IMG/VR virus record: IMGVR_UViG_3300048065_000485
Span: 1 to 53,076 of that record
From: a virus
DNA: 53,076 nucleotides
Reading direction: 5' to 3' (one strand)
Both the position numbers and the translations under genes were made by a program. Within the stretch, counting starts at the first letter, position 1. Every line of letters starts with the position of its first letter. Below are positions 1 to 43,620 of this stretch, in pieces. The notes under the pieces were generated by a model that saw only the letters and a list, made by a program, of their open reading frames with translations, did not search any database and had not been told where the DNA came from.

Positions 1-2
1 GT

Positions 3-830
3 TATATCTTATTGGGTATGTTTTTATTAATACCTATGTCAGCAAATGCAGATGATAACGAAGTATTTTTAGGTAACATAAGTGGTGACAATTTAGAACT
101 AGATATACTACAAGCAGGTACTGATAATACAGTCACAGGTATAACAGAGTCAAGTCAATTTACAGGAGACGACAATACCTTACATATTATGCAAATAGGT
201 ACTGGAAATTTGTTTGAAGGTAATTGGACTAGTGGCGGCCTTAATACTTTAAAAGTATTCCAAGGTGGTGGCGGTAATGATAATTTTGTTAGGTTAACAG
301 GGTTTGGAACAAACAATACTGGACTTGTACTACAAGGTATGCACTCGGACGGAACTATTGACGCAGATGAAACAGGCTCCCACGAAGCATATTGGACAGT
401 AACAGGCGACTACAATGAGTTTTCCAGTTTTCAAACAGACACTAACCGAGGCAATGGAAGTGGAGATAGTCATCACTTAGCACATATAATTGATGGTGAC
501 TACAATGATGTTTGGCATAGGCAAAGAGGCAAAGCAGGACACGACGGTTTTATAGAAATCACAGGCGATTACAACGATGTAATTTTAGACCAAAAAGGCA
601 GTGGTGGTAAAAAATGGGCAGATGTCGTTTTAGATGGCAATGGACATAATATTGATATAAATCAACGTGGTACAAATTATGCATCAGCGGCAGTTGATTT
701 AACATTTGGTACAGGTGCTTACACATTTGATTTATCACAGAATGTCTCATCAGCAACAGCAACATACTCACTTACCGGTATATGTAATAACTCAGGAGGC
801 TGTTCAGTTACAGTGAATCAGAATAACTAA
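3..830 (+). CDS. Curlin-repeat secreted protein (CsgA/CsgB-like), 5' partial
   Basis: The reading frame is open to the left edge, so the true start lies upstream. The visible N-terminus is a hydrophobic stretch ending in SANA before DDNE, which looks like the second half of a signal peptide with cleavage after ANA. The mature part holds about nine degenerate repeats with spacing G-x-x-N-x(3-5)-Q-x-G, for example DNTLHIMQIGTGN and GDYNDVILDQKGSG, and ends in VTVNQNN. This Asn/Gln/Gly periodicity is the hallmark of curlin amyloid subunits (CsgA/CsgB), which are exported by CsgG. The likely role is an extracellular or outer-membrane fibre made during infection. No CsgG is visible, but it could lie upstream. 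Curli-type genes have been reported in pelagimyophages as far as I recall. The next gene starts in a TAATG overlap, so they are co-transcribed. Confidence 0.72.
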   Translation, partial: YILLGMFLLIPMSANADDNEVFLGNISGDNLELDILQAGTDNTVTGITESSQFTGDDNTLHIMQIGTGNLFEGNWTSGGLNTLKVFQGGGGNDNFVRLTGFGTNNTGLVLQGMHSDGTIDADETGSHEAYWTVTGDYNEFSSFQTDTNRGNGSGDSHHLAHIIDGDYNDVWHRQRGKAGHDGFIEITGDYNDVILDQKGSGGKKWADVVLDGNGHNIDINQRGTNYASAAVDLTFGTGAYTFDLSQNVSSATATYSLTGICNNSGGCSVTVNQNN

Positions 831-1144
831 TGCAAAGTTTAGACAGTTTAGGAAATCCAATACCCATTGAAGTAGACTATTTTGAATGCCCTGAAACTAT
901 GGTGTGTCTTACTGAAGAGACATTTAATGAAATGCTGGAACCATACGATATGGAATACAGCACAGAAACACTTGCACTTGAACCCAAAGGCGATGCAGAA
1001 GCAGTATTAGACTTCACAACTACATTATTATTTTTAGATTTTTGGACTATTGCCTATCTGGCAATACCTCTCACTATATTTGCAGTATATGGATTAAGTA
1101 TATATGCAGGCTTTAAATGGATTCAAACTAAAATAAGCAAATAA
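830..1144 (+). CDS. Small membrane protein, unknown function
   Basis: A 104-residue protein whose start overlaps the curlin-like gene's stop in TAATG, implying translational coupling. The first ~55 residues are acidic and soluble-looking, with two cysteines (ECPETMVC). Residues ~60-98 form one long or two short hydrophobic segments, followed by a basic end (KWIQTKISK), so a membrane anchor with the positive end in the cytoplasm is likely. I do not recognise the family. Position suggests an accessory to the secreted curlin-like protein, but that is inference only. Confidence 0.6.
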   Translation: MQSLDSLGNPIPIEVDYFECPETMVCLTEETFNEMLEPYDMEYSTETLALEPKGDAEAVLDFTTTLLFLDFWTIAYLAIPLTIFAVYGLSIYAGFKWIQTKISK

Positions 1145-1148
1145 TTAG

Positions 1149-1177
1149 TTGACACGCCGCAGTTTTTTTGCTATAAT
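1149..1177 (+). promoter_or_regulatory. Sigma70-type promoter
   Basis: TTGACA (1149-1154), 17-bp spacer, TATAAT (1172-1177): a perfect consensus. Predicted +1 is near 1184, only about 5 nt before the ATG at 1189, so the transcript would have almost no leader. Confidence 0.85.
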
Positions 1178-1188
1178 ATTTTTGAACT

Positions 1189-1377
1189 ATGAAACATATG
1201 ATCAAATGGCTGAAGATAACAGCCGGTATAAACTTATATCTATCCGTTATAATGACGTTTGTGTTTTTAACACTACTGTTTGCAATAGTATCCGACTATA
1301 ATTTAACTAATGCAGACGAATATGTTAGGTTCTTAATAAAAGAAGAAATGCAAAAAGACCCTAATGGAAATAACTAA
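1189..1377 (+). CDS. Small single-span membrane protein
   Basis: 62 residues with a basic N-terminus (MKHMIKWLK), one hydrophobic span at about residues 12-35, and a charged C-terminus. It lies directly behind a perfect sigma70 promoter and overlaps the next gene by 14 bp. A second ATG four codons in could also start it. Family not recognised. Being first behind a strong host-type promoter suggests early expression. Confidence 0.6.
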   Translation: MKHMIKWLKITAGINLYLSVIMTFVFLTLLFAIVSDYNLTNADEYVRFLIKEEMQKDPNGNN

Positions 1378-1666
1378 TTACACAAACAGTCTTAAGATTT
1401 ATTTTCTTGCTTTTGTAAGTGTACACATAATTGCATTCGGTGTGTTCTTCCCATTAATAGCATTTTTAATATTTTGTATATTAATGCCTTTTCTTTGGAT
1501 TACTACAATCTATATGATAATGTATAATTATTGCAGACAAGAAGGTATAGACTGGCCCTATACAGAAGGTAACCCAGTTTTACTAGATGTACATTTAACT
1601 CCATTCTATTACTTAAATGATTACGACCCATTTATAGATTACTTTGATTATGACCCACGTTACTAA
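1364..1666 (+). CDS. Membrane protein, paralogue of the next gene
   Basis: 100 residues. The N-terminus TNYTNSLKIYFLAFVSVH leads into two hydrophobic segments (about residues 12-35 and 38-62), then a Tyr/Asp-rich tail (YYLNDYDPFIDYFDYDPRY). It shares a clear N-terminal pattern with the following gene (TN/TKYTNSL..Y..A.ASVH..A.G..YP), so the two arose by tandem duplication. It overlaps both neighbours (14 bp and 23 bp). Function unknown; a holin-like or envelope role is possible but not shown. Confidence 0.6.
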   Translation: MEITNYTNSLKIYFLAFVSVHIIAFGVFFPLIAFLIFCILMPFLWITTIYMIMYNYCRQEGIDWPYTEGNPVLLDVHLTPFYYLNDYDPFIDYFDYDPRY

Positions 1667-1964
1667 GTACACAAACAGTTTGAGAAACTATGCTATTGCT
1701 GTAGCAAGTGTTCACGCAGTAGCATTAGGTTGGTTATATCCAAATGTACTAATGCTTATAGTTGTTCCACCAATAATATTCTATTTGCTTTTCTTATATT
1801 GCGAATTAATGTATGAAATTGACGAAGGAACTAGATTAAGATTACTAAAAGCAATTCGTGAAGCAGACGACCCAATCACAAAAGATGTACTAACTTGGGA
1901 ACTGATATTACACGAAGAACATACTATATTTGGAAACAATTCAAATGATAGGTTAGGTTTTTAA
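1644..1964 (+). CDS. Membrane protein, paralogue of the preceding gene
   Basis: 106 residues, starting inside the 3' end of its paralogue. It repeats the TKYTNSLRNYAIAVASVH N-terminus, has two hydrophobic segments (about 14-32 and 34-55), and then a different, charged C-terminal half rich in Glu/Asp/Arg. The tails have diverged completely, so the membrane domain is the conserved unit. A second start, ATGACC, lies two codons in. Function unknown. Confidence 0.6.
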   Translation: MIMTHVTKYTNSLRNYAIAVASVHAVALGWLYPNVLMLIVVPPIIFYLLFLYCELMYEIDEGTRLRLLKAIREADDPITKDVLTWELILHEEHTIFGNNSNDRLGF

Positions 1965-1970
1965 TTTAAT

Positions 1971-1978
1971 GATAAATA
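1971..1978 (+). promoter_or_regulatory. Late promoter box GATAAATA
   Basis: T4-type late box upstream of the lipoprotein gene. Predicted +1 near 1984 gives a leader of about 48 nt containing a hairpin and an AAGGAG ribosome site. Confidence 0.6.
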
Positions 1979-1983
1979 TATTA

Positions 1984-2011
1984 TGTTATAATAACAGATT
2001 GTTTTATAACA
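1984..2011 (+). other. Inverted repeat at the 5' end of the lipoprotein mRNA
   Basis: TGTTATAA (1984-1991) pairs with TTATAACA (2004-2011) around a 12-nt loop. The hairpin would start at the predicted transcript 5' end and could protect the mRNA or affect initiation. Confidence 0.45.
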
Positions 2012-2031
2012 CTTATATATAAGGAGAAAAT

Positions 2032-2355
2032 ATGAACAATTTAAAAAATGCGTTCTTAGGTATATTCTTTGTAATGTTTGCTCAAGGTTGTGCTACAGTT
2101 GGTACCGTAATCGATGGCGGACAAAAACTAGCCACAGATACACTTGATACTGTAACAGGTACAGCAAGTGGTATCGTTGGTTCAGTTGCAAATGATGTCG
2201 GTAGTGTAGTTCAAACTACAGCAGAAGTTGGAGTTGGATTAGTCCAAACTGCGGCTGATACCGGTGCAGGATTAGTACAAGTTGTTGCTGACGAAGTCAA
2301 CAATCAAACTGATGCTTTACAAGAAGAAGAACCAAAAGAAGAGCCAAAAAAGTAA
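2032..2355 (+). CDS. Putative lipoprotein with 11-residue helical repeats
   Basis: 107 residues. A short basic start and hydrophobic stretch lead to a lipobox-like FAQGC at ~16-20; the -3 residue is Ala, so it is not ideal. Residues ~55-90 hold three 11-residue repeats of the form VGSVVQTTAEV / GVGLVQTAADT / GAGLVQVVADE, an amphipathic-helix pattern seen in lipid-binding repeat proteins. The end is Glu/Lys-rich. AAGGAG precedes the ATG by 6 nt. The gene ends A AAA AAG TAA, a canonical -1 slippery site at the stop codon, and the -1 frame stays open for 71 more codons, so a longer product is likely. Probable location: inner face of the outer membrane. Confidence 0.7.
   Translation: MNNLKNAFLGIFFVMFAQGCATVGTVIDGGQKLATDTLDTVTGTASGIVGSVANDVGSVVQTTAEVGVGLVQTAADTGAGLVQVVADEVNNQTDALQEEEPKEEPKK
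2346..2352 (+). promoter_or_regulatory. Candidate -1 ribosomal frameshift site (A AAA AAG)
   Basis: The heptamer lies in the required phase (cc[A AAA AAG] TAA) with the stop immediately after. A purine-rich AGAAGAG sits just upstream and could act as a stimulatory Shine-Dalgarno element. The -1 frame is open from 2313 to 2567. No strong downstream stem was seen. Confidence 0.55.
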
Positions 2356-2567
2356 CTAGCTCATTCTTTAAACCTTTTAAGTTTTTAAAACAGAACGAAA
2401 AACAAAAAGGTATAGACTCACCCTCGAAAGAGAGTGAGCAGGTAACTGAAGAGGATATTAAAGAACTTATATTGCAAAATAAAGTTCTAAAAGAGTTATT
2501 GAAAGATAAACTTTTAGAAGATGCAATTAAAGAATATTGCTCCAAGGTACCTGAAGACTGTGAATAG
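2352..2567 (+). CDS. Frameshift extension of the lipoprotein (charged coiled-coil tail)
   Basis: The -1 frame after the slippery heptamer encodes 71 residues: a basic/aromatic start (VTSSFFKPFKFLK), then a Glu/Lys/Leu-rich helix (EEDIKELILQNKVLKELLKD), ending CSKVPEDCE before TAG. There is no ATG or GTG in this frame and only two internal TTG codons, so frameshifting is the simplest way to express it. The amino-acid make-up looks coding. Its stop is overlapped by the GTG of the next gene (2560), as expected for a real translated unit. It would add a helical arm to the lipoprotein. The alternative is a degraded separate gene. Confidence 0.5.
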   Translation, partial: VTSSFFKPFKFLKQNEKQKGIDSPSKESEQVTEEDIKELILQNKVLKELLKDKLLEDAIKEYCSKVPEDCE

Positions 2568-3072
2568 ATTACTTTTCATCATAACATTAACATTTCCTCT
2601 GTTTTTAACGGCAGAGGAAATTGTTCTTAGTCCATCATACTTACCGGAAGGTAGTGTATTGGACCTTACCTATAATCCCCCACTAGATCCTTATTACTGT
2701 GATAATAATCCTGAACTTTGTAAAGTAATAGAAACTAGTGACATTCCAAAGTTTGATATGACTCCACGTGCTACTAATGGACAATGGATAGCATTTTGGA
2801 CGTTTCAGTTATTAGATGTATATTCAACATCACGAGCATTAAAGTACGATTGTGTAACAGAAATAAATCCGTTGTTTACAGAATCGCCTAGTGATGCTAG
2901 ATTGGTACTTACAAAAACACTTTTACTGGTACCTGGCTTAATGTACAACGATTACTGGAAAGAAGTCACACCTAACGAACTTAATGACACTAATATGGTG
3001 TACTCAATAGTTGTTGCAAATAACTTTAGATTACTTAACAAAGCCAAGCAGTATTGCAATAAAATACGATAA
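2560..3072 (+). CDS. Signal-peptide membrane protein with DVYST/EINPLF motif
   Basis: I prefer the GTG at 2560 over the ATG at 2521: it gives a clean signal peptide (NRLLFIITLTFPLFLTAEE), has AAGG upstream, and overlaps the frameshift extension by only 8 bp. About 170 residues. The mature part has paired cysteines (YYCDNNPELC) and the block FWTFQLLDVYSTSRALKYDC then EINPLF. That D..ST..AL...E.NPL pattern recurs in small polytopic membrane proteins of the DUF5658 type (from memory). A hydrophobic segment covers ~114-130. Function unknown; by position, part of the envelope block. A late box overlaps its stop codon. Confidence 0.6.
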   Translation: MNRLLFIITLTFPLFLTAEEIVLSPSYLPEGSVLDLTYNPPLDPYYCDNNPELCKVIETSDIPKFDMTPRATNGQWIAFWTFQLLDVYSTSRALKYDCVTEINPLFTESPSDARLVLTKTLLLVPGLMYNDYWKEVTPNELNDTNMVYSIVVANNFRLLNKAKQYCNKIR

Positions 3073-3075
3073 ATA
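3068..3075 (+). promoter_or_regulatory. Late promoter box GATAAATA, leaderless start
   Basis: Exactly 5 nt (ttgat) separate the box from the ATG at 3081, so T4 spacing puts +1 on the A of ATG. The box contains the TAA stop of the upstream gene (3070-3072). Confidence 0.7.
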
Positions 3076-3080
3076 TTGAT

Positions 3081-5150
3081 ATGAAATGGTTATACAGCGG
3101 GTACGCAGTAGCAGTATCTATAGCATTGTTACTCGCATTAAGGGTATTCGATCCTACGCCTTTACAAAGCCTACGTGGTCAAGTATTTGACAGTTACCAA
3201 CAATTAGATGAAGTAGTACAAAGTGATGACGTTGTATTAATAAACATTGGCGAAAAAAGTTTAGCAAAATACGGACAGTATCCTTTCCCTAGACAATACT
3301 ATGCTCAAATGGTAGTAGACGTTGCTATGAAAAATGGCGGTGTTATGGGTTGGACAATAATGTTTCCAGAAGCAGATAGGTTTCAGGGAGATGAAAGTTT
3401 TGCAGGTATGATGAATCAGAACGTTATGAATGTTCCTGGTGCAAGAAAGAATCCTGTAAACTATAATGTATTAAGCCAAACACCAAGTGTAAAGGGTATA
3501 AAGTCAACAGGACCACATATAGGCACAGGCACAATAGGGCCTGTTCCAGCAAAAGATTATTTGCTTACTTGGCCCAACTTAGTTACTAATGTAGACAAGT
3601 TAGAATCAGCAAGTAATGGTAAAGGAGTAAATGCTTCAGCACCACAACCAGATAATCAAACAAGAACATATCCATTAGCAATTACAGTAGGTGATAAAAT
3701 ATATCCTAGTTTTGCTGTAGAAATGTTAAGGGTAAAAACAGGCAAACCTAGTTACATAATTAAAACATCAGAAATAGGAATACAGGAAGTTGCTGTTCCC
3801 CCATTTGACCCGATAGTAACGCAACCAAACGGAACAGCATATATAAGATTTAATAATGAATTTACTGAAATTGAATATGAGGGTGCAGAAAGCATTCCAG
3901 ACTTAGCAGGTAAATTTGTTATAGTAGGTGTTACAGCAGAAGGTATTGCTAACCCTGTGCCTACACCTAAAGGAAACTTATATCCTCAACAGATACAAGC
4001 ACACATGCTACAGAACTTTATAGATGGTAGTAATATAACAAGGAGTCAGTTAAGTGCTGTCATAGAGCTTCTAGTAGGGTTACTGACTATGGTTCTTGTT
4101 GCTTTAGCAGTATATAGATTACCATTGCTTTTAACAGCACCTATGGCTTTAGCAGTATTAGGTGGTATAGCATACTTTAGTGTTTACAAATATACTAGTA
4201 GTTTGGTATTATTAGATGCAACTTTCCCTGTATTAAGTGGATTTTTAGTATTTACACAGGCGGCATTTAATAACTTTTACAAGCAGTTTAAATTACGTGA
4301 ACAAATTAAGAAACAATTCGAACATTACCTTGCTCCAGCAATGGTTAAAAAATTACAGAAAGATCCAAGTTTATTACGTTTAGGTGGAGATACAAAAACA
4401 ATGACATATCTATTTTCAGATATTAGAGGTTTCACACCGATATCAGAACAGTTTAAAACAGATCCACAAGGTTTAGGTAAACTTATAAACAGATATATGA
4501 CACCAATGACTGACCTCGTTATGCAGAAAGAGGGAACAATAGACAAATACATAGGTGATGCCTTAATGGCAATTTGGGGAGCACCACTTGATATAGAAAA
4601 TCATGCTCAGTTGGCAATAGAAACAGCACAAGAAATGGAAGTAGAATTAGCAAAATTAAACAAAGAACTAAAAGCAGACGGACTTATGGAGTTAGGTGTT
4701 GGTATAGGCATAAACACAGGTGATGCAGTAGTAGGTAACATGGGCTCAGATCAACGATTCGATTATACAGTATTAGGCGATAGTGTAAATTTAGCGGCAC
4801 GTTTAGAAGCACAAACAAAAGAGTATGGTGTATTCTTTATGTTTACTGAACACACTCTTAAGGAAATTACAGCACCTGAAAATTTAGTGATGTTAGATAA
4901 AATTGCTGTAAAAGGACAAACAGCACCAGTTACAATTTATACTATTTTAAAAGATCATAAAGAAGCAAGAGTTATTAACAGAATGGTAGATGCATATCAA
5001 AACAGAGAATGGAGTACAGTTGCACATCAAATAGAAATTATTAATCAGCATAACTGGAATTCTGTATTAGCAGAATTATATGGTCAAAGAATTAAACAGC
5101 CTATGCCTAAAGGCGAATGGGACGGAGTTGAACGTAAAACAACTAAATAG
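3081..5150 (+). CDS. CHASE2-domain class III adenylate cyclase
   Basis: 689 residues. An N-terminal membrane anchor (~6-22) precedes a periplasmic CHASE2 sensor domain (~25-320, with the typical VVLINIGEKSLAKYGQYPFPR start), three membrane spans (~325-410), and a C-terminal class III cyclase domain (~440-625). Catalytic residues look complete: metal aspartates D447 (FSDIRGFT) and D493 (KYIGDALMAIWG), substrate-determining K490 and T563 (FDYTVLGD), and transition-state N570 and R574 (NLAARLE). The Lys/Thr pair fits a class IIIb adenylate rather than guanylate cyclase. It should convert ATP to cAMP at the inner membrane in response to a periplasmic signal. A late box 5 nt before the ATG predicts late, leaderless expression. 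Such a gene is very unusual in a phage. Confidence 0.92.
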   Translation: MKWLYSGYAVAVSIALLLALRVFDPTPLQSLRGQVFDSYQQLDEVVQSDDVVLINIGEKSLAKYGQYPFPRQYYAQMVVDVAMKNGGVMGWTIMFPEADRFQGDESFAGMMNQNVMNVPGARKNPVNYNVLSQTPSVKGIKSTGPHIGTGTIGPVPAKDYLLTWPNLVTNVDKLESASNGKGVNASAPQPDNQTRTYPLAITVGDKIYPSFAVEMLRVKTGKPSYIIKTSEIGIQEVAVPPFDPIVTQPNGTAYIRFNNEFTEIEYEGAESIPDLAGKFVIVGVTAEGIANPVPTPKGNLYPQQIQAHMLQNFIDGSNITRSQLSAVIELLVGLLTMVLVALAVYRLPLLLTAPMALAVLGGIAYFSVYKYTSSLVLLDATFPVLSGFLVFTQAAFNNFYKQFKLREQIKKQFEHYLAPAMVKKLQKDPSLLRLGGDTKTMTYLFSDIRGFTPISEQFKTDPQGLGKLINRYMTPMTDLVMQKEGTIDKYIGDALMAIWGAPLDIENHAQLAIETAQEMEVELAKLNKELKADGLMELGVGIGINTGDAVVGNMGSDQRFDYTVLGDSVNLAARLEAQTKEYGVFFMFTEHTLKEITAPENLVMLDKIAVKGQTAPVTIYTILKDHKEARVINRMVDAYQNREWSTVAHQIEIINQHNWNSVLAELYGQRIKQPMPKGEWDGVERKTTK
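5142..5149 (+). promoter_or_regulatory. Late promoter box ACTAAATA, leaderless start
   Basis: TAAATA followed by gtagt and the ATG at 5155 (5-nt gap). The box overlaps the cyclase stop codon TAG at 5148-5150. Confidence 0.55.
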
Positions 5151-5154
5151 TAGT

Positions 5155-5481
5155 ATGAAAAACTTTTTACACAACATAGTACAGAAAGGCAAATCTGCTT
5201 TAATATGGTTAGGCCAATTGGCTTATAAAATCTATAAAGCAATAGTTAAATTTATTTTTAAACTCCTTTACGAAGAATACGAATTGACAGTTTGGTATCT
5301 TAAAGACTCAGTCAGAGATAAAGACGGTAACATAACAACTACAAGATCACATAAAAGATATCTTTTAAAGAAAATTTCTAAGAAAACTCCTAAACATATC
5401 AAAGGAAAAGATATGGAAGGAAGAGCATTTGAAATTAGAACTGTAGAACCTTTTGATTATCAGATAAGAAAAATTTATTAA
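5155..5481 (+). CDS. Small basic protein with amphipathic N-terminus, unknown
   Basis: The start at 5155 is chosen because a late box sits exactly 5 nt upstream; the upstream in-frame ATG at 5080 lies inside the cyclase gene. 108 residues. Residues 1-45 are a hydrophobic/basic helix (WLGQLAYKIYKAIVKFIFKLLYEEY) and the rest is very Lys/Arg-rich with a possible beta segment. It may bind membrane or nucleic acid. Convergent with the next gene; the two abut with no gap and no terminator is visible. Family not recognised. Confidence 0.6.
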   Translation: MKNFLHNIVQKGKSALIWLGQLAYKIYKAIVKFIFKLLYEEYELTVWYLKDSVRDKDGNITTTRSHKRYLLKKISKKTPKHIKGKDMEGRAFEIRTVEPFDYQIRKIY

Positions 5482-9027: not shown

Positions 9028-9035
9028 GATAAATA
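9028..9035 (+). promoter_or_regulatory. Late promoter box GATAAATA before tRNA-Ser
   Basis: Predicted +1 at about 9041, three bases before the mature tRNA 5' end at 9044. It likely drives the tRNA and the biosynthetic cassette behind it. Confidence 0.6.
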
Positions 9036-9043
9036 TCTAAAAC

Positions 9044-9133
9044 GGAAAGGTGGCTGAGTGGCTTAAAGCACTTCCCTGCTAAGGAAGAGTACGGGTAACT
9101 GTACCGAGAGTTCGAATCTCTCCCTTTCCGCCA
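9044..9133 (+). tRNA. tRNA-Ser (anticodon GCU)
   Basis: Acceptor GGAAAGG (9044-9050) pairs with CCTTTCC (9123-9129), then discriminator G and encoded CCA. The anticodon stem CTTCC/GGAAG encloses loop CTGCTAA with anticodon GCT at 9078-9080 (reads AGC/AGU). The long variable arm is typical of serine tRNA, and the T arm has GAGAG-TTCGAAT-CTCTC. A late box lies just upstream. It probably helps decode AGU, which is common in these AT-rich genes. Confidence 0.93.
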
Positions 9134-36394: not shown

Positions 36395-36422
36395 TTGACA
36401 AAACATATTGTTCGTGTATAAT
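36395..36422 (+). promoter_or_regulatory. Sigma70-type promoter of the TonB-receptor gene
   Basis: TTGACA (36395-36400), 16 bp, TATAAT (36417-36422). Predicted +1 near 36429; leader of ~39 nt with ACGGAG before ATG 36468. It starts right after the terminator. Confidence 0.88.
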
Positions 36423-36467
36423 TAATACTAAAACTATTATGACTAAATGGTCACGGAGAATTTAAAA

Positions 36468-38153
36468 ATGGAAAGATTCCTTTATGAGAATATAATTAAA
36501 ATTGCAATCGTTATTACTTTACCACTTTGGACAGCCTATGCACTTGCTGAAGATGTAGAAGAAGTAATTGTTATTGCACAAGAAGTTAAGGCAACAGAAA
36601 CAGATTCACTTACTGATACAAAATTAATTACCAGTATTATGCCTGATGTTACTTACATAGCAGGAGGCTATGGAGGCAATGTTTTATTCAGAGAGCGAGG
36701 TACACAATCTGTACATACAGCAGTTTACAGAAATGGTATACCGCAAAATACACCTGGTTCAGGTTGGTATGACTTTGCACATGATATTGTATCAGGGGAA
36801 GATGTTAAAGTAATTAGCGGAGCCAATAGTGTAATGTATGGCTCAGGAAGTATTGGTGGTACAGTTTTAATAAAAGACTTAATTAAGAAAGGTGTAACAG
36901 GCAGACTTGGTAATCAGTCACATAGATATATTTCAGTAGCACCTACAAACTGGATGCAAATTACAGATTTTTCTGTAAAACAAAATGCTAGAAATGATAA
37001 CGAAGAAGAAGACACTTATGAAAATACCAGTGCAAAAATTATTGCAGATGCAGGTGACTTTACATTGTATGTTACTTCAACTGATTATGCTTATGATTAT
37101 GATAATTGCTTCACAGCAGAGTTTACACAAAGTAATGATTGCTTACAGGACGGTGAAAGATTTACAGTAAGTATTAGAAATGAATACTTTACTATAGGTA
37201 GATCAGAAGATAAAGCAGAATATTTTACTGAGGGTGTTAGTACATATCAAAATGAAAGTAGCAGAGACTTTTTTAGAGTAGGCGATACAGTAAAGTTATC
37301 TAACTTATTGGATGTTACTTATGGTGTTGATGGTAGCAAAGATCAATACATGGAACAAGAACAAGACAACTACGGTGCCTTTTTAAGTGTAAATGCCAAG
37401 TTCGCCTTAGAATATAACTTTGGTATTAGATACGGAAACAATGATCAAAATGCTGTAAGATTAGGTATTGCAAAAGATCAGTTCTTTTTTAATGTAGGAA
37501 CTAGTTATAGGAGACCTAACTTATATGAACTTTATGGTGATGCCTTTGTAGATCCTAATGAAGAATTACTTCCAGAGGAAGGAGTTGGATATGAAATAGG
37601 ATTTGGTGCCATCAGTATTTTTAAATACGAATTTGAAGAAGCAATAGAATATACTGCACCATATTCAGAAACAGTATTGGTTGCACCTGCTACATTTGAT
37701 GCAGAAGGAAATCTTTTAACTGAACAAATAAATGAAGAAATTTATTATAATGCAAAATATAATAATTCAGGTGCTTATGATACTCAGGGTATTAGATTTG
37801 CTAATACATGGGGACCTTTTAGTATAAATCTAAAAGTAAATGACACAGATCAAACTAGAATACCAGAGTATGTTGGTGTTATTACATGGGATCAGATGTT
37901 TAAAGATATAAATTATAAAGTACAATATTCAGGGCAGTTTGATAGAGCACCTGGACCTTATGATGTTCTTTCAGAAGAGCAAGAATTTTTAGAAGATCTC
38001 ACAAAACTTAGTGTGTATATTACAAAAAGATTTACTAATGGAATGAATTTAAACTTTGCAATAGACAACATTACTGATGAGGAAGTTGAAGTGTTACCAT
38101 ACTACAATAACCAAGGCAGACAAATTAACTTGACAATACAATACAATTGGTAG
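36468..38153 (+). CDS. TonB-dependent outer-membrane receptor
   Basis: The start at 36468 has ACGGAG 8-10 nt upstream; the ATG at 36447 lacks one. 561 residues. Signal peptide 1-27 (cleavage ALA/ED), then a TonB-box-like EVIVIA at 32-37, plug domain ~45-145 (VLFRERGTQ, VYRNGIPQNTPGSGW, VKVISGANSVMYGSGSIGG) and a ~400-residue beta-barrel of alternating strands ending INLTIQYNW with the aromatic C-terminal residue needed for outer-membrane insertion. It would import a scarce ligand (iron complex, cobalamin or similar) using host TonB, or mask/replace a host receptor. Size is at the small end (BtuB-like). Phage-encoded TonB receptors are, to my knowledge, essentially unreported. Own promoter and terminator insulation. 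Confidence 0.88.
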   Translation: MERFLYENIIKIAIVITLPLWTAYALAEDVEEVIVIAQEVKATETDSLTDTKLITSIMPDVTYIAGGYGGNVLFRERGTQSVHTAVYRNGIPQNTPGSGWYDFAHDIVSGEDVKVISGANSVMYGSGSIGGTVLIKDLIKKGVTGRLGNQSHRYISVAPTNWMQITDFSVKQNARNDNEEEDTYENTSAKIIADAGDFTLYVTSTDYAYDYDNCFTAEFTQSNDCLQDGERFTVSIRNEYFTIGRSEDKAEYFTEGVSTYQNESSRDFFRVGDTVKLSNLLDVTYGVDGSKDQYMEQEQDNYGAFLSVNAKFALEYNFGIRYGNNDQNAVRLGIAKDQFFFNVGTSYRRPNLYELYGDAFVDPNEELLPEEGVGYEIGFGAISIFKYEFEEAIEYTAPYSETVLVAPATFDAEGNLLTEQINEEIYYNAKYNNSGAYDTQGIRFANTWGPFSINLKVNDTDQTRIPEYVGVITWDQMFKDINYKVQYSGQFDRAPGPYDVLSEEQEFLEDLTKLSVYITKRFTNGMNLNFAIDNITDEEVEVLPYYNNQGRQINLTIQYNW

Positions 38154-41959: not shown

Positions 41960-43078
41960 ATGTATCAATTTACAAGTGAAAGTGTCAGCGAAGGACATCC
42001 AGATAAAGTTGCTGATTTAATATCAGATCACATAGCACAATGGTTAATTAATCATAATTCTAATAATAGAGCCGCAGTAGAAACATTAGTTACTACAAAT
42101 ACTGTAATAATAGCAGGAGAATATAAAACTGATAGAGAAGAAGATGTAGAGGAATCAGTTAGAGGTATTGTAATTGATACTGTCAAGCAACTAGGTTATG
42201 AACAAGAAGGATTTCATTGGGACAAATTAAATATAGAATATTACTTACATGGGCAAAGTTCAGATATAGCATTAGGTACTGATAACTTTGGTGCAGGTGA
42301 TCAAGGTATTATGTTTGGATATGCAAATAGGGAAACAGAAAATTACATGCCTTTTGCAATATCGTATTCGCATAAGATATTACAAGAACTATCTAATAGG
42401 AGAAAATCTAATTCAAAATATAAAGGTATAATTTTACCTGACAGTAAGTGTCAGTTGACAGTAAATTATGGAGCACCAAATACACCTTTAGATATTAACA
42501 ATGTCGTAGTCAGTACTCAACATCATGCAGAAGCGACACAACAGCAGGTCGAAGATTTAGTAAGGGAAGTTGTAAAAGATGTTGTTCCTAAAGAGTTTTT
42601 AACAGAAAAAACAAATTACCAAATTAATCCTACAGGCAGATTTGTTATTGGTGGACCTGACGGAGATACAGGTTTAACAGGAAGAAAAATTGTTGTAGAT
42701 ACTTATGGTGGATATGCTCCGCATGGCGGTGGTGCTTTTTCAGGTAAGGATTTTACAAAAGTAGATAGAAGTGCGGCATATATGGCTAGATGGATAGCAA
42801 AGAATATTGTTCATAAATATGATTTACAAGAATGTTTAGTACAATTAAGTTATGTGATAGGAATAGAGGAACCGTCATCATTGTTAATATATGCAAATGG
42901 TGAACTTAGATTAGATTTAATGAACTTAATTAGAAAGGAAGTTGATTTAACACCTAAAGGAATTATAGAATGGTTAGGATTATTAAATGTAATATTACCT
43001 GACACCACAAATTACGGACATTTTGGTAAAGAACCTACTGGCAATAGTTTAATAACCTGGGAAGAATATACATTATGA
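41960..43078 (+). CDS. metK: S-adenosylmethionine synthetase
   Basis: 372 residues (E. coli MetK 384). Signature blocks present in order: FTSESVSEGHPDK (4-16, ATP/metal), LHGQSSDIALG, GAGDQGIMFGYA, PTGRFVIGGPDGDTGLTGRK, VDTYGGYAPHGGGAFSGKD and KVDRSAAYMARWIAKN. The enzyme joins methionine and ATP into SAM. It appears complete. AAGGA precedes the ATG, and apt overlaps its stop (ATGA). In this phage SAM would feed the radical SAM enzyme at 14485 and any methyltransferases. A full metK in a phage is unusual. Confidence 0.96.
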   Translation: MYQFTSESVSEGHPDKVADLISDHIAQWLINHNSNNRAAVETLVTTNTVIIAGEYKTDREEDVEESVRGIVIDTVKQLGYEQEGFHWDKLNIEYYLHGQSSDIALGTDNFGAGDQGIMFGYANRETENYMPFAISYSHKILQELSNRRKSNSKYKGIILPDSKCQLTVNYGAPNTPLDINNVVVSTQHHAEATQQQVEDLVREVVKDVVPKEFLTEKTNYQINPTGRFVIGGPDGDTGLTGRKIVVDTYGGYAPHGGGAFSGKDFTKVDRSAAYMARWIAKNIVHKYDLQECLVQLSYVIGIEEPSSLLIYANGELRLDLMNLIRKEVDLTPKGIIEWLGLLNVILPDTTNYGHFGKEPTGNSLITWEEYTL

Positions 43079-43620
43079 TTTTAAATTTTAAAGACTCAAT
43101 AAGAACAGTACCAGACTTTCCTATAGAAGGAATACAGTTCAGGGACATTACAAGCATGTTAGAAAGCCCACATGCGTTCAACAAAGCATGTGTTGACCTT
43201 ACTAAAGTATGTATGCAATTTGATGCTACTAAAATTGTTGCAATAGAAAGTAGAGGATTTATTTTTGGCTCTCCTATAGCAAGAGATATGGAATTACCCT
43301 TAATATTAGCAAGGAAACCAGGTAAGTTACCCAACCCCACCTATCAAAGAAGTTATAAACTAGAGTATGGAGAATCAACTTTACATATTCAACGAAATTC
43401 TGATATAAACTCTAAAGATAAAATTGTTATAGTAGATGACTTAATTGCTACAGGCGGAACAGCAAAGGCATTAGCAAGTTTGATAGCACAATGTTGGAAA
43501 GTACCTAAAGAAAATATTTTAATTTTAGCCGTTATAGACTTGCCCGATTTAGAAGGAAGTGCTATAATAGAGAAAGAAGGATATAATGTTGAGACACTAA
43601 TTGAATTTGAAGGAAAATAA
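43075..43620 (+). CDS. apt: Adenine phosphoribosyltransferase
   Basis: 181 residues, full family length. N-terminal FPIEGIQFRDITSMLESPHAF, IVAIESRGFIFGSPIARDMELPLILARKPGKLPNP, and the PRPP loop IVIVDDLIATGGTA at ~118-131. It makes AMP from adenine and PRPP. The ATGA overlap with metK suggests one unit: adenine released when SAM by-products are cleaved could be salvaged to AMP. That link is inference. TAATG junction to the next gene. Confidence 0.93.
   Translation: MILNFKDSIRTVPDFPIEGIQFRDITSMLESPHAFNKACVDLTKVCMQFDATKIVAIESRGFIFGSPIARDMELPLILARKPGKLPNPTYQRSYKLEYGESTLHIQRNSDINSKDKIVIVDDLIATGGTAKALASLIAQCWKVPKENILILAVIDLPDLEGSAIIEKEGYNVETLIEFEGK

Follow-up and report, generated by a model that had tools for sequence, protein, structure and literature searches.

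A probable curli-type secretion module with an envelope cassette at the left end of a contig from a putative marine T4-like jumbo phage

The window (the whole stretch of DNA analysed here, 53,076 nucleotides of IMG/VR virus record IMGVR_UViG_3300048065_000485) opens at positions 3–5481 with a block that is, very probably, the rightmost part of a type VIII (curli-type) secretion module (T8SS) carried by a phage, together with an envelope cassette. The features of this block are as follows:

3–830, plus strand: curlin2, second curlin-repeat protein, 5′ end off the contig (Pfam PF07012 [Curlin_rpt], E 7e-10, above cut-off)
830–1144, plus strand: tmA, small membrane protein, start overlapping the curlin2 stop (TAATG)
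1149–1177, plus strand: sigma70-type promoter TTGACA-17-TATAAT, ahead of tmB
1189–1377, plus strand: tmB, 62-aa membrane protein, the best conserved of the small membrane proteins
1364–1666, plus strand: tmC, small membrane protein, paralogue of tmD
1650–1964, plus strand: tmD, small membrane protein
1971–1978, plus strand: T4-late-type promoter motif GATAAATA, ahead of the lipoprotein gene
2032–2355, plus strand: lipoprotein, short isoform, 107 aa, lipobox Cys20 invariant in 20/20 relatives
2346–2352, plus strand: slippery heptamer A AAA AAG, immediately 5′ of the TAA stop of the short isoform
2352–2567, plus strand: putative −1 frame extension of the lipoprotein, 71 codons, conserved YC-xxxP-xxC end
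2359–2369, plus strand: candidate stimulator stem, 5′ arm, 6 nt past the slippery heptamer
2429–2439, plus strand: candidate stimulator stem, 3′ arm
2560–3072, plus strand: signal-peptide/membrane protein, DUF5658-like (sub-threshold Pfam match), GTG start overlapping the stop of the −1 extension
3068–3075, plus strand: T4-late-type promoter motif at −13 of the cyclase ATG, leaderless mRNA predicted
3081–5150, plus strand: CHASE2-class III adenylate/guanylate cyclase, 689 aa (CHASE2, E 8e-31; Guanylate_cyc, E 2e-20; both above cut-off)
5142–5149, plus strand: ACTAAATA, at −13 of the gene after the cyclase
5155–5481, plus strand: small membrane-associated protein after the cyclase, variable and missing from many relatives

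Every gene that the initial annotation listed in this region, from the curlin-repeat protein through the four small membrane proteins, the lipoprotein and the signal-peptide protein to the cyclase, is indeed present, head to tail on the plus strand. The block is not a chance assembly, since the same gene order recurs in dozens of independent IMG/VR contigs with cyclase identities of 63–100%. A scan of the block against Rfam gave no match. The DUF5658-like protein was not assigned to that family, its Pfam match being sub-threshold and a fold match lacking.

Secretion genes had been anticipated in the missing left part, and overlapping contigs supplied CsgG and CsgF, though not CsgE. Contig L004, near-identical across the overlap, adds the end of CsgG, a curlin-repeat protein (curlin1) and FecR to the left, and from it the full length of curlin2 could be read as 296 aa (2693–3583). 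A second contig, L049, contributes CsgF (3526–4017; Pfam CsgF, 4e-13). The remaining upstream Pfam matches are CsgG (3e-46, for the gene in L004, L049 and L030), FecR (9e-11) and curlin1 (5e-4, slightly below cut-off). CsgF, CsgG, curlin1 and FecR form a complete set in 7/7 relatives with at least 8 kb of sequence upstream of the cyclase; the linkage to secretion partners predicted by the initial annotation is therefore found upstream and conserved in related phages. The order of the module is csgF-csgG-curlin1-FecR-curlin2-[tmA-tmB-tmC-tmD]-[lipoprotein, DUF5658-like]-CHASE2 cyclase. With predicted fibre subunits, CsgG pore, CsgF, FecR and cyclase all present, it has the gene content by which a phage T8SS (curli) module is recognized. 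CsgE (PF10627) is absent from seven phage records; its presence under another name was ruled out, the Pfam CsgE domain being absent. The curlin repeats are few and degenerate, the AlphaFold model of curlin2 is all-beta with moderate confidence (pLDDT 68), and a structure search with this model returned beta-helices as best matches, none of them significant.

The core of this module is known, since csgF-csgG-curlin-FecR-curlin-cyclase has already been published for pelagiphages and other marine phages (PMC7029224, PMC9004378, PMC9599517). What is new here is the set of extra membrane genes, the split between early and late promoters, the putatively frameshifting lipoprotein and the jumbo-phage lineage. 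A pelagimyophage connection had been suggested initially, and an HTVC008M-like identity of the contig was rejected on two markers: the terminase stands at ~57% to PA5oct-type jumbo phages versus 32% to HTVC008M, and UvsX at 60–65% to the jumbo phages Phosso, Atu_ph07 and CBB. Both being closest to T4-like jumbo phages, the source appears to be an uncultured marine T4-like jumbo phage and therefore another lineage carrying the curli module. Such modules, which are widespread, have thus spread over at least one more lineage.

At the sequence level the two lipoprotein isoforms proposed initially are real: a shift into the −1 frame at 2346–2352 would yield a product of 178 rather than 107 aa. Comparison among relatives makes it highly probable that this gene carries a conserved programmed −1 frameshift producing both the short and the long form. 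An in-phase heptamer is found in 40/44 loci (A AAA AAG in 35, G GGA AAG in 5), and heptamer plus extension occur in 40/44 relatives versus 0/471 control genes; within the whole window the lipoprotein gene is the only ORF with such a cassette. A stem at the 6-nt spacer is present in 24/26 distinct sequences, and divergent loci have unrelated stem sequences. Covariation within the main stem family is weak, and L220 and L223 gave no convincing stem. The extension shows a pN/pS of 0.38 (104 pairs), and its length differences are whole codons. In the four loci without the heptamer the extension sits in another frame. A minimum-energy fold of the window sequence alone placed a hairpin upstream of the slip site; this was set aside because downstream pairing is what relatives keep.

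Two other readings of the extension, as a distinct gene under translational coupling or as the result of slippage during transcription, seem highly improbable. The extension of one divergent relative (L204) opens with an ATG of its own (TAATG), and runs of A6–A7 can slip when transcribed; however, the −1 frame has no conserved start codon (L078–L080 have none there), G GGA AAG, the heptamer of five loci, lacks a long homopolymer, and the stem stands at a fixed 6-nt spacer. The −1 cassette of E. coli dnaX consists of an A AAA AAG heptamer, a short spacer and a downstream stem, and there the shift truncates the product. The lipoprotein cassette shares these three elements, but it lies in a phage lipoprotein gene with the stop codon right after the heptamer, and the predicted shift extends the product. 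No frameshift of this kind was found in HTVC008M, no lipoprotein homologues were found in cultured phages (BLAST low-complexity filtering may hide some), and the literature searched did not describe programmed frameshifting for any phage lipoprotein gene. As a defined element the cassette can be tested in an E. coli reporter without the uncultured phage.

Two classes of putative promoter are distributed along the block. The sigma70-type promoter TTGACA-17-TATAAT occupies the same position ahead of tmB in 21/21 loci (14 different sequences). The late-type motif lies close to the lipoprotein start in 42/42 loci, exactly at −13 of the cyclase ATG in 60 of 63 (the remaining three having CTAAATA there), and in the csg operon leader in 6/6; it also precedes curlin2 in close relatives, and exact NATAAATA stands at −13 in 5/32 homologues of the gene after the cyclase. 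Over the whole window the motif lies exactly at −13 of seven ORFs, compared with at most one for any permutation of it. A homologue of the gp55-type late sigma is present in a 250-kb relative; the motif at fixed distance and this sigma together mark the sites as predicted T4-type late promoters, and the genes behind them are likely to be expressed late. The initial annotation had viewed the block as a single surface-remodelling programme. We do not retain that view, because the early and late promoter classes differ along the block and the tmB/lipoprotein cassette occurs also at other sites, away from the csg genes; the cassette may therefore have a separate function. The split narrows the possible roles: the csg part would act late at the surface, and tmB–tmD early at the membrane.

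Control of curli by cAMP, also put forward initially, fares poorly. The putative cyclase retains the residues of a class III adenylate cyclase (metal-binding D447 and D493, specificity K489 and T563, transition-state N570 and R574). With these catalytic residues and the linkage to csg genes, the cyclase might turn on the phage's own curli genes as in enterobacteria, and a role for it in T8SS function has also been suggested (PMC9599517). Yet no cNMP_binding domain was found in seven phage records (HTVC008M, Melnitz, the 250-kb relative and four more contigs). Such phages are reported to lack CsgD (PMC9599517), and what precedes the csg operon is instead the phage late-type motif; the cyclase, too, is predicted to be late. 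We regard this scheme as very unlikely, and cAMP-CRP control was rejected since no effector was found in those seven records.

On balance we favour an explanation in which a curli-type module with an envelope cassette follows an early/late plan and may give the infected cell an adhesive late surface. Host polymerase would transcribe the small inner-membrane protein genes soon after injection. Late, alongside virion assembly, the CsgG/CsgF pore would be made, the two curlin-repeat proteins exported to coat the infected cell, and the lipoprotein inserted with a short:long ratio set by frameshifting; the cyclase, with its periplasmic CHASE2 domain and perhaps with FecR, would sense the state of the envelope. 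The likeliest benefit, though a tentative one, would be a sticky late surface holding neighbouring cells or new virions near, the "sibling capture" that has been proposed (PMC7029224). Against it, cultures of Melnitz showed its authors no clumping (PMC9004378). That the two isoforms sit in the outer membrane and the long one, with its conserved two-cysteine tail, takes over the gating done by CsgE in bacteria, confining curlin export to late infection, is a doubtful conjecture.

Two other roles, each of which we consider rather unlikely, make different use of the same genes. CsgG/CsgF might form a late pore timing lysis, pinholin- or secretin-like, with the curlin-repeat proteins and FecR as accessories and no fibre. 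Such a role was proposed for Melnitz (PMC9004378) and would suit both the late-type promoter of the csg operon and the position of csgF, immediately downstream of a tandem pair of small single-TM proteins (PHROG 18771), one with a weak holin match (E 0.09). However, in every relative whose upstream sequence is long enough the pore is accompanied by the two curlin-repeat proteins and FecR, for which a pore serving lysis alone would have no need. Alternatively the block might be a superinfection-exclusion or surface-masking island. T4 Imm and Sp offer a comparison in size and timing for tmB–tmD, with their near-perfect early-type promoter, and a surface coat could block receptors; but the secreted and lipoprotein genes stand behind late-type promoters, late for exclusion, and the only tie to known exclusion proteins is a chance-level Cor match (E 0.06).

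Compared with the pelagiphage T8SS (HTVC008M, pelagimyophages and HTVC023P-type podophages; PMC7029224, PMC9599517), the order from csgF to cyclase, the lack of CsgE and the pair of small genes in tandem ahead of csgF are shared. The present module differs in its jumbo lineage, the envelope genes added between curlin2 and the cyclase, the putatively frameshifting lipoprotein, an internal early promoter of its own and a tail-fibre gene as upstream neighbour (in L049, together with two 98-aa single-TM proteins). FecR and adenylate cyclase belong to the published T8SS module, and podophage versions have a histidine kinase upstream of csgF (PMC9599517); no histidine kinase domain was found there in L049. 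Methylophilales phage Melnitz (PMC9004378) shares csgF-csgG-curlin-FecR-curlin-cyclase and the late motif at −13 of the cyclase, but is without the tm/lipoprotein/DUF5658 cassette, and its cyclase has a different catalytic domain in which the transition-state Asn is Ser. With bacterial curli (E. coli csgBAC/csgDEFG) the phage module has curlin repeats and homologues of CsgG and CsgF in common; the phages differ in lacking CsgE, in the addition of FecR and the CHASE2 cyclase, and in their phage promoters.

The cyclase resembles alphaproteobacterial CHASE2-class III adenylate cyclases (~31–38% identity across most of its length), whose genes, unlike those of the phages, have no csgG nearby. The phage sensor (CHASE2) domains form a clade of their own (100/100) but are joined to three interchangeable catalytic domains, the Melnitz type with Ser for Asn among them. 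Among bacterial CHASE2 cyclases a FecR gene lies no more than 10 kb away in 17 of the 35 loci with full flanks, many of them from Bradyrhizobium; as a raw count this is no more than suggestive of a FecR-cyclase link in bacteria.

Reading of the ORFs at 1–5481 bore out the initial annotation of a curlin-repeat protein, four small membrane proteins (tmA–tmD), a lipoprotein, a signal-peptide protein and a cyclase. By Pfam, the gene at 3–830 (curlin2) matches Curlin_rpt and that at 3081–5150 matches CHASE2 and Guanylate_cyc, all above the curated cut-offs. The signal-peptide protein gave only a sub-threshold match, to DUF5658, and the small membrane proteins and lipoprotein gave no Pfam family match. 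The cyclase has counterparts in pelagimyophage HTVC008M (36.6% identity) and Methylophilales phage Melnitz (34.7%), annotated in both beside csgF, csgG and curlin genes.

It had been suggested that CsgG/CsgF-like genes may lie to the left of the block, and these were found, with confirmation by Pfam (as for FecR), in overlapping or related loci among the 80 recovered by an IMG/VR scan with the cyclase as query. L004, whose cyclase is identical to the window's, extends further left and carries the CsgG end, a first curlin-repeat protein (curlin1), FecR and the start of curlin2. Compiled over all loci, the order is csgF-csgG-curlin1-FecR-curlin2-(tmA-tmD)-(lipoprotein, DUF5658-like)-cyclase, and the first five genes are all present in 7/7 loci that extend 8 kb or more upstream of the cyclase (L019, L030, L031, L049, L059, L079 and L081). 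CsgF is preceded by two 98-aa proteins in tandem, both of PHROG 18771, and by a tail-fibre-like gene. Locus L030 (6776–9842) has extra genes between curlin2 and the cyclase, one for a ferredoxin-reductase-like flavoprotein.

The core of this finding is not new, since the module has already been described: csgF/csgG and curli-associated genes in pelagimyophages, with sibling capture suggested (PMC7029224); the Melnitz operon, with a suggested role in lysis (PMC9004378); and, for myo- and podophages, a module that includes a histidine kinase along with FecR, the cyclase and a second curlin gene (PMC9599517). The excerpts of these papers at hand make no mention of the small membrane/lipoprotein cassette, frameshifting or a promoter plan for the module.

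The terminase of the window shares approximately 57% identity with those of PA5oct-type jumbo Pseudomonas phages, versus 32% with that of HTVC008M, and its UvsX is 60–65% identical to those of jumbo phages Phosso, Atu_ph07, CBB and others. A 250,519-base contig with the same module has a terminase 78% identical to the window's.

The lipoprotein ORF ends CCA AAA AAG TAA, and its -1 frame remains open for 71 more codons, to 2567, with the C-terminus YCSKVPEDCE. An in-phase canonical heptamer (A AAA AAG in 35, G GGA AAG in 5) with an open extension of 33–74 codons occurs in 40/44 lipoprotein loci, versus both features in none of 471 other genes scored alike. The extensions share a YC-xxxP-xxC terminus, vary in length in whole-codon steps and have a pN/pS of 0.38 (104 pairs); the -1 frame lacks a conserved start codon in the lipoprotein loci compared.

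RNAalifold on 20 relatives revealed an 11-bp helix, its 5' arm starting 6 nt past the heptamer, and in a perfect-helix search the best helix lay at spacer 6 in 24 of 26 distinct heptamer-bearing sequences. Among these 24 are loci whose stems are unrelated in sequence (CCTTCTTA/TAAGAAGG, GCCATTC/GAATGGC and CCTTTTCTCT/AGAGAAAAGG); for shorter stems the shuffle control was only borderline. The main stem family is 99.1% paired, versus 48.6–61.4% when the arms are slid, and shows weak covariation because the arms hardly vary.

In L018, L028, L029 and L037 the heptamer is absent, one base is deleted past the stop and the extension is retained in the +1/-2 frame; these genes may rely on another type of frameshifting. 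The DUF5658-like gene begins with a GTG that overlaps the extension stop (2560–2567), so that frameshifted ribosomes could feed this gene. Since related cassettes sit at other genome sites (L210–L215, L220–L224, L231), the lipoprotein does not strictly belong to the csg module. In L204 (~95–450) the extension opens with its own overlapping ATG (TAATG), possibly an ancestral or derived two-gene state.

The T4-late motif NATAAATA is rarer in the window (22 copies) than in shuffled sequence (about 40). Exactly 13 nt before an ORF ATG it is found at 7 sites, and at the same position 9 times in HTVC008M, versus at most one for any permutation of its letters in either case; it is placed where late promoters are expected. 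NATAAATA-N5-ATG recurs window-wide before many structural-type genes (e.g. 3068, 6127, 8980, 17781, 24879, 27115 and 28722). Because five bases separate motif and ATG, the late mRNAs would be leaderless, provided transcription starts where it does in T4. The tRNA-Ser(GCT) at 9044–9133 has a late motif 16 nt upstream (region 9028–9133), which suggests late expression.

Within the module the late motif stands at -13 of the cyclase in 60/63 loci (CTAAATA in the remainder), near the lipoprotein start in 42/42, at the head of the csg operon in 6/6, and at -13 of curlin2 in L004, L049, L011 and L042, all closely related to the window. The internal controls (tmA, tmC, tmD, csgG, curlin1, FecR and nudix) are without it. 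A TTGACA-17-TATAAT-like promoter is found in the block before tmB only (21/21 loci, 14 distinct sequences). The 250-kb relative has a gp55-type sigma homologue.

The gene make-up of the block, its conservation, the promoter motifs and the frameshift cassette are evident from sequence; the csg products would presumably be made late and exported, and may be adhesive. A late adhesive coating is our tentative preference, at less than even odds, and the timing of lysis and exclusion are not far behind. The late-type csg promoters are easier to reconcile with adhesion or lysis than with exclusion; exclusion is the better fit for the early-type tmB–tmD. The cAMP route proposed initially lost ground, as no cNMP-binding protein was found in the seven phage records searched.

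The window cyclase retains both metal aspartates and the Lys/Thr and Asn/Arg pairs. Trees of its two halves conflict. On the sensor side, every phage protein falls into a single clade (100/100), in which HTVC008M and Melnitz are sister to the jumbo lineage; in the catalytic-half tree L066 groups with HTVC008M (100/99) and L076/L079/L081 with Melnitz (100/100). We therefore infer that the output domain was exchanged and the CHASE2 sensor kept, the contrast being L066, L076, L079 and L081 versus L002 and L003. The catalytic-half tree carries a warning on its longest branches; the swap can also be seen clearly in the alignment. The Melnitz-type catalytic domain has Ser at the transition-state Asn position. 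Bacterial relatives are mostly alphaproteobacterial, and csgG was never near them in the flanks inspected. FecR often is (within 10 kb in 17/35 bacterial CHASE2-cyclase loci with full flanks, L087–L166), hinting at what may be an older FecR–CHASE2 partnership.

Elsewhere in the window, one gene lies between those for the clamp loader and helicase:

36447–38153, + strand, TonB-dependent receptor-like protein (Plug domain, E 5e-10)

This protein had no match among 50,697 phage records; a 51% relative is encoded on contig G003, and segments of the 250-kb contig G001 also match. Its gene has a promoter, TTGACA-16-TATAAT, at 36395. At 41960–43620 putative SAM synthetase-like and adenine phosphoribosyltransferase-like genes, recognized by eye, adjoin.
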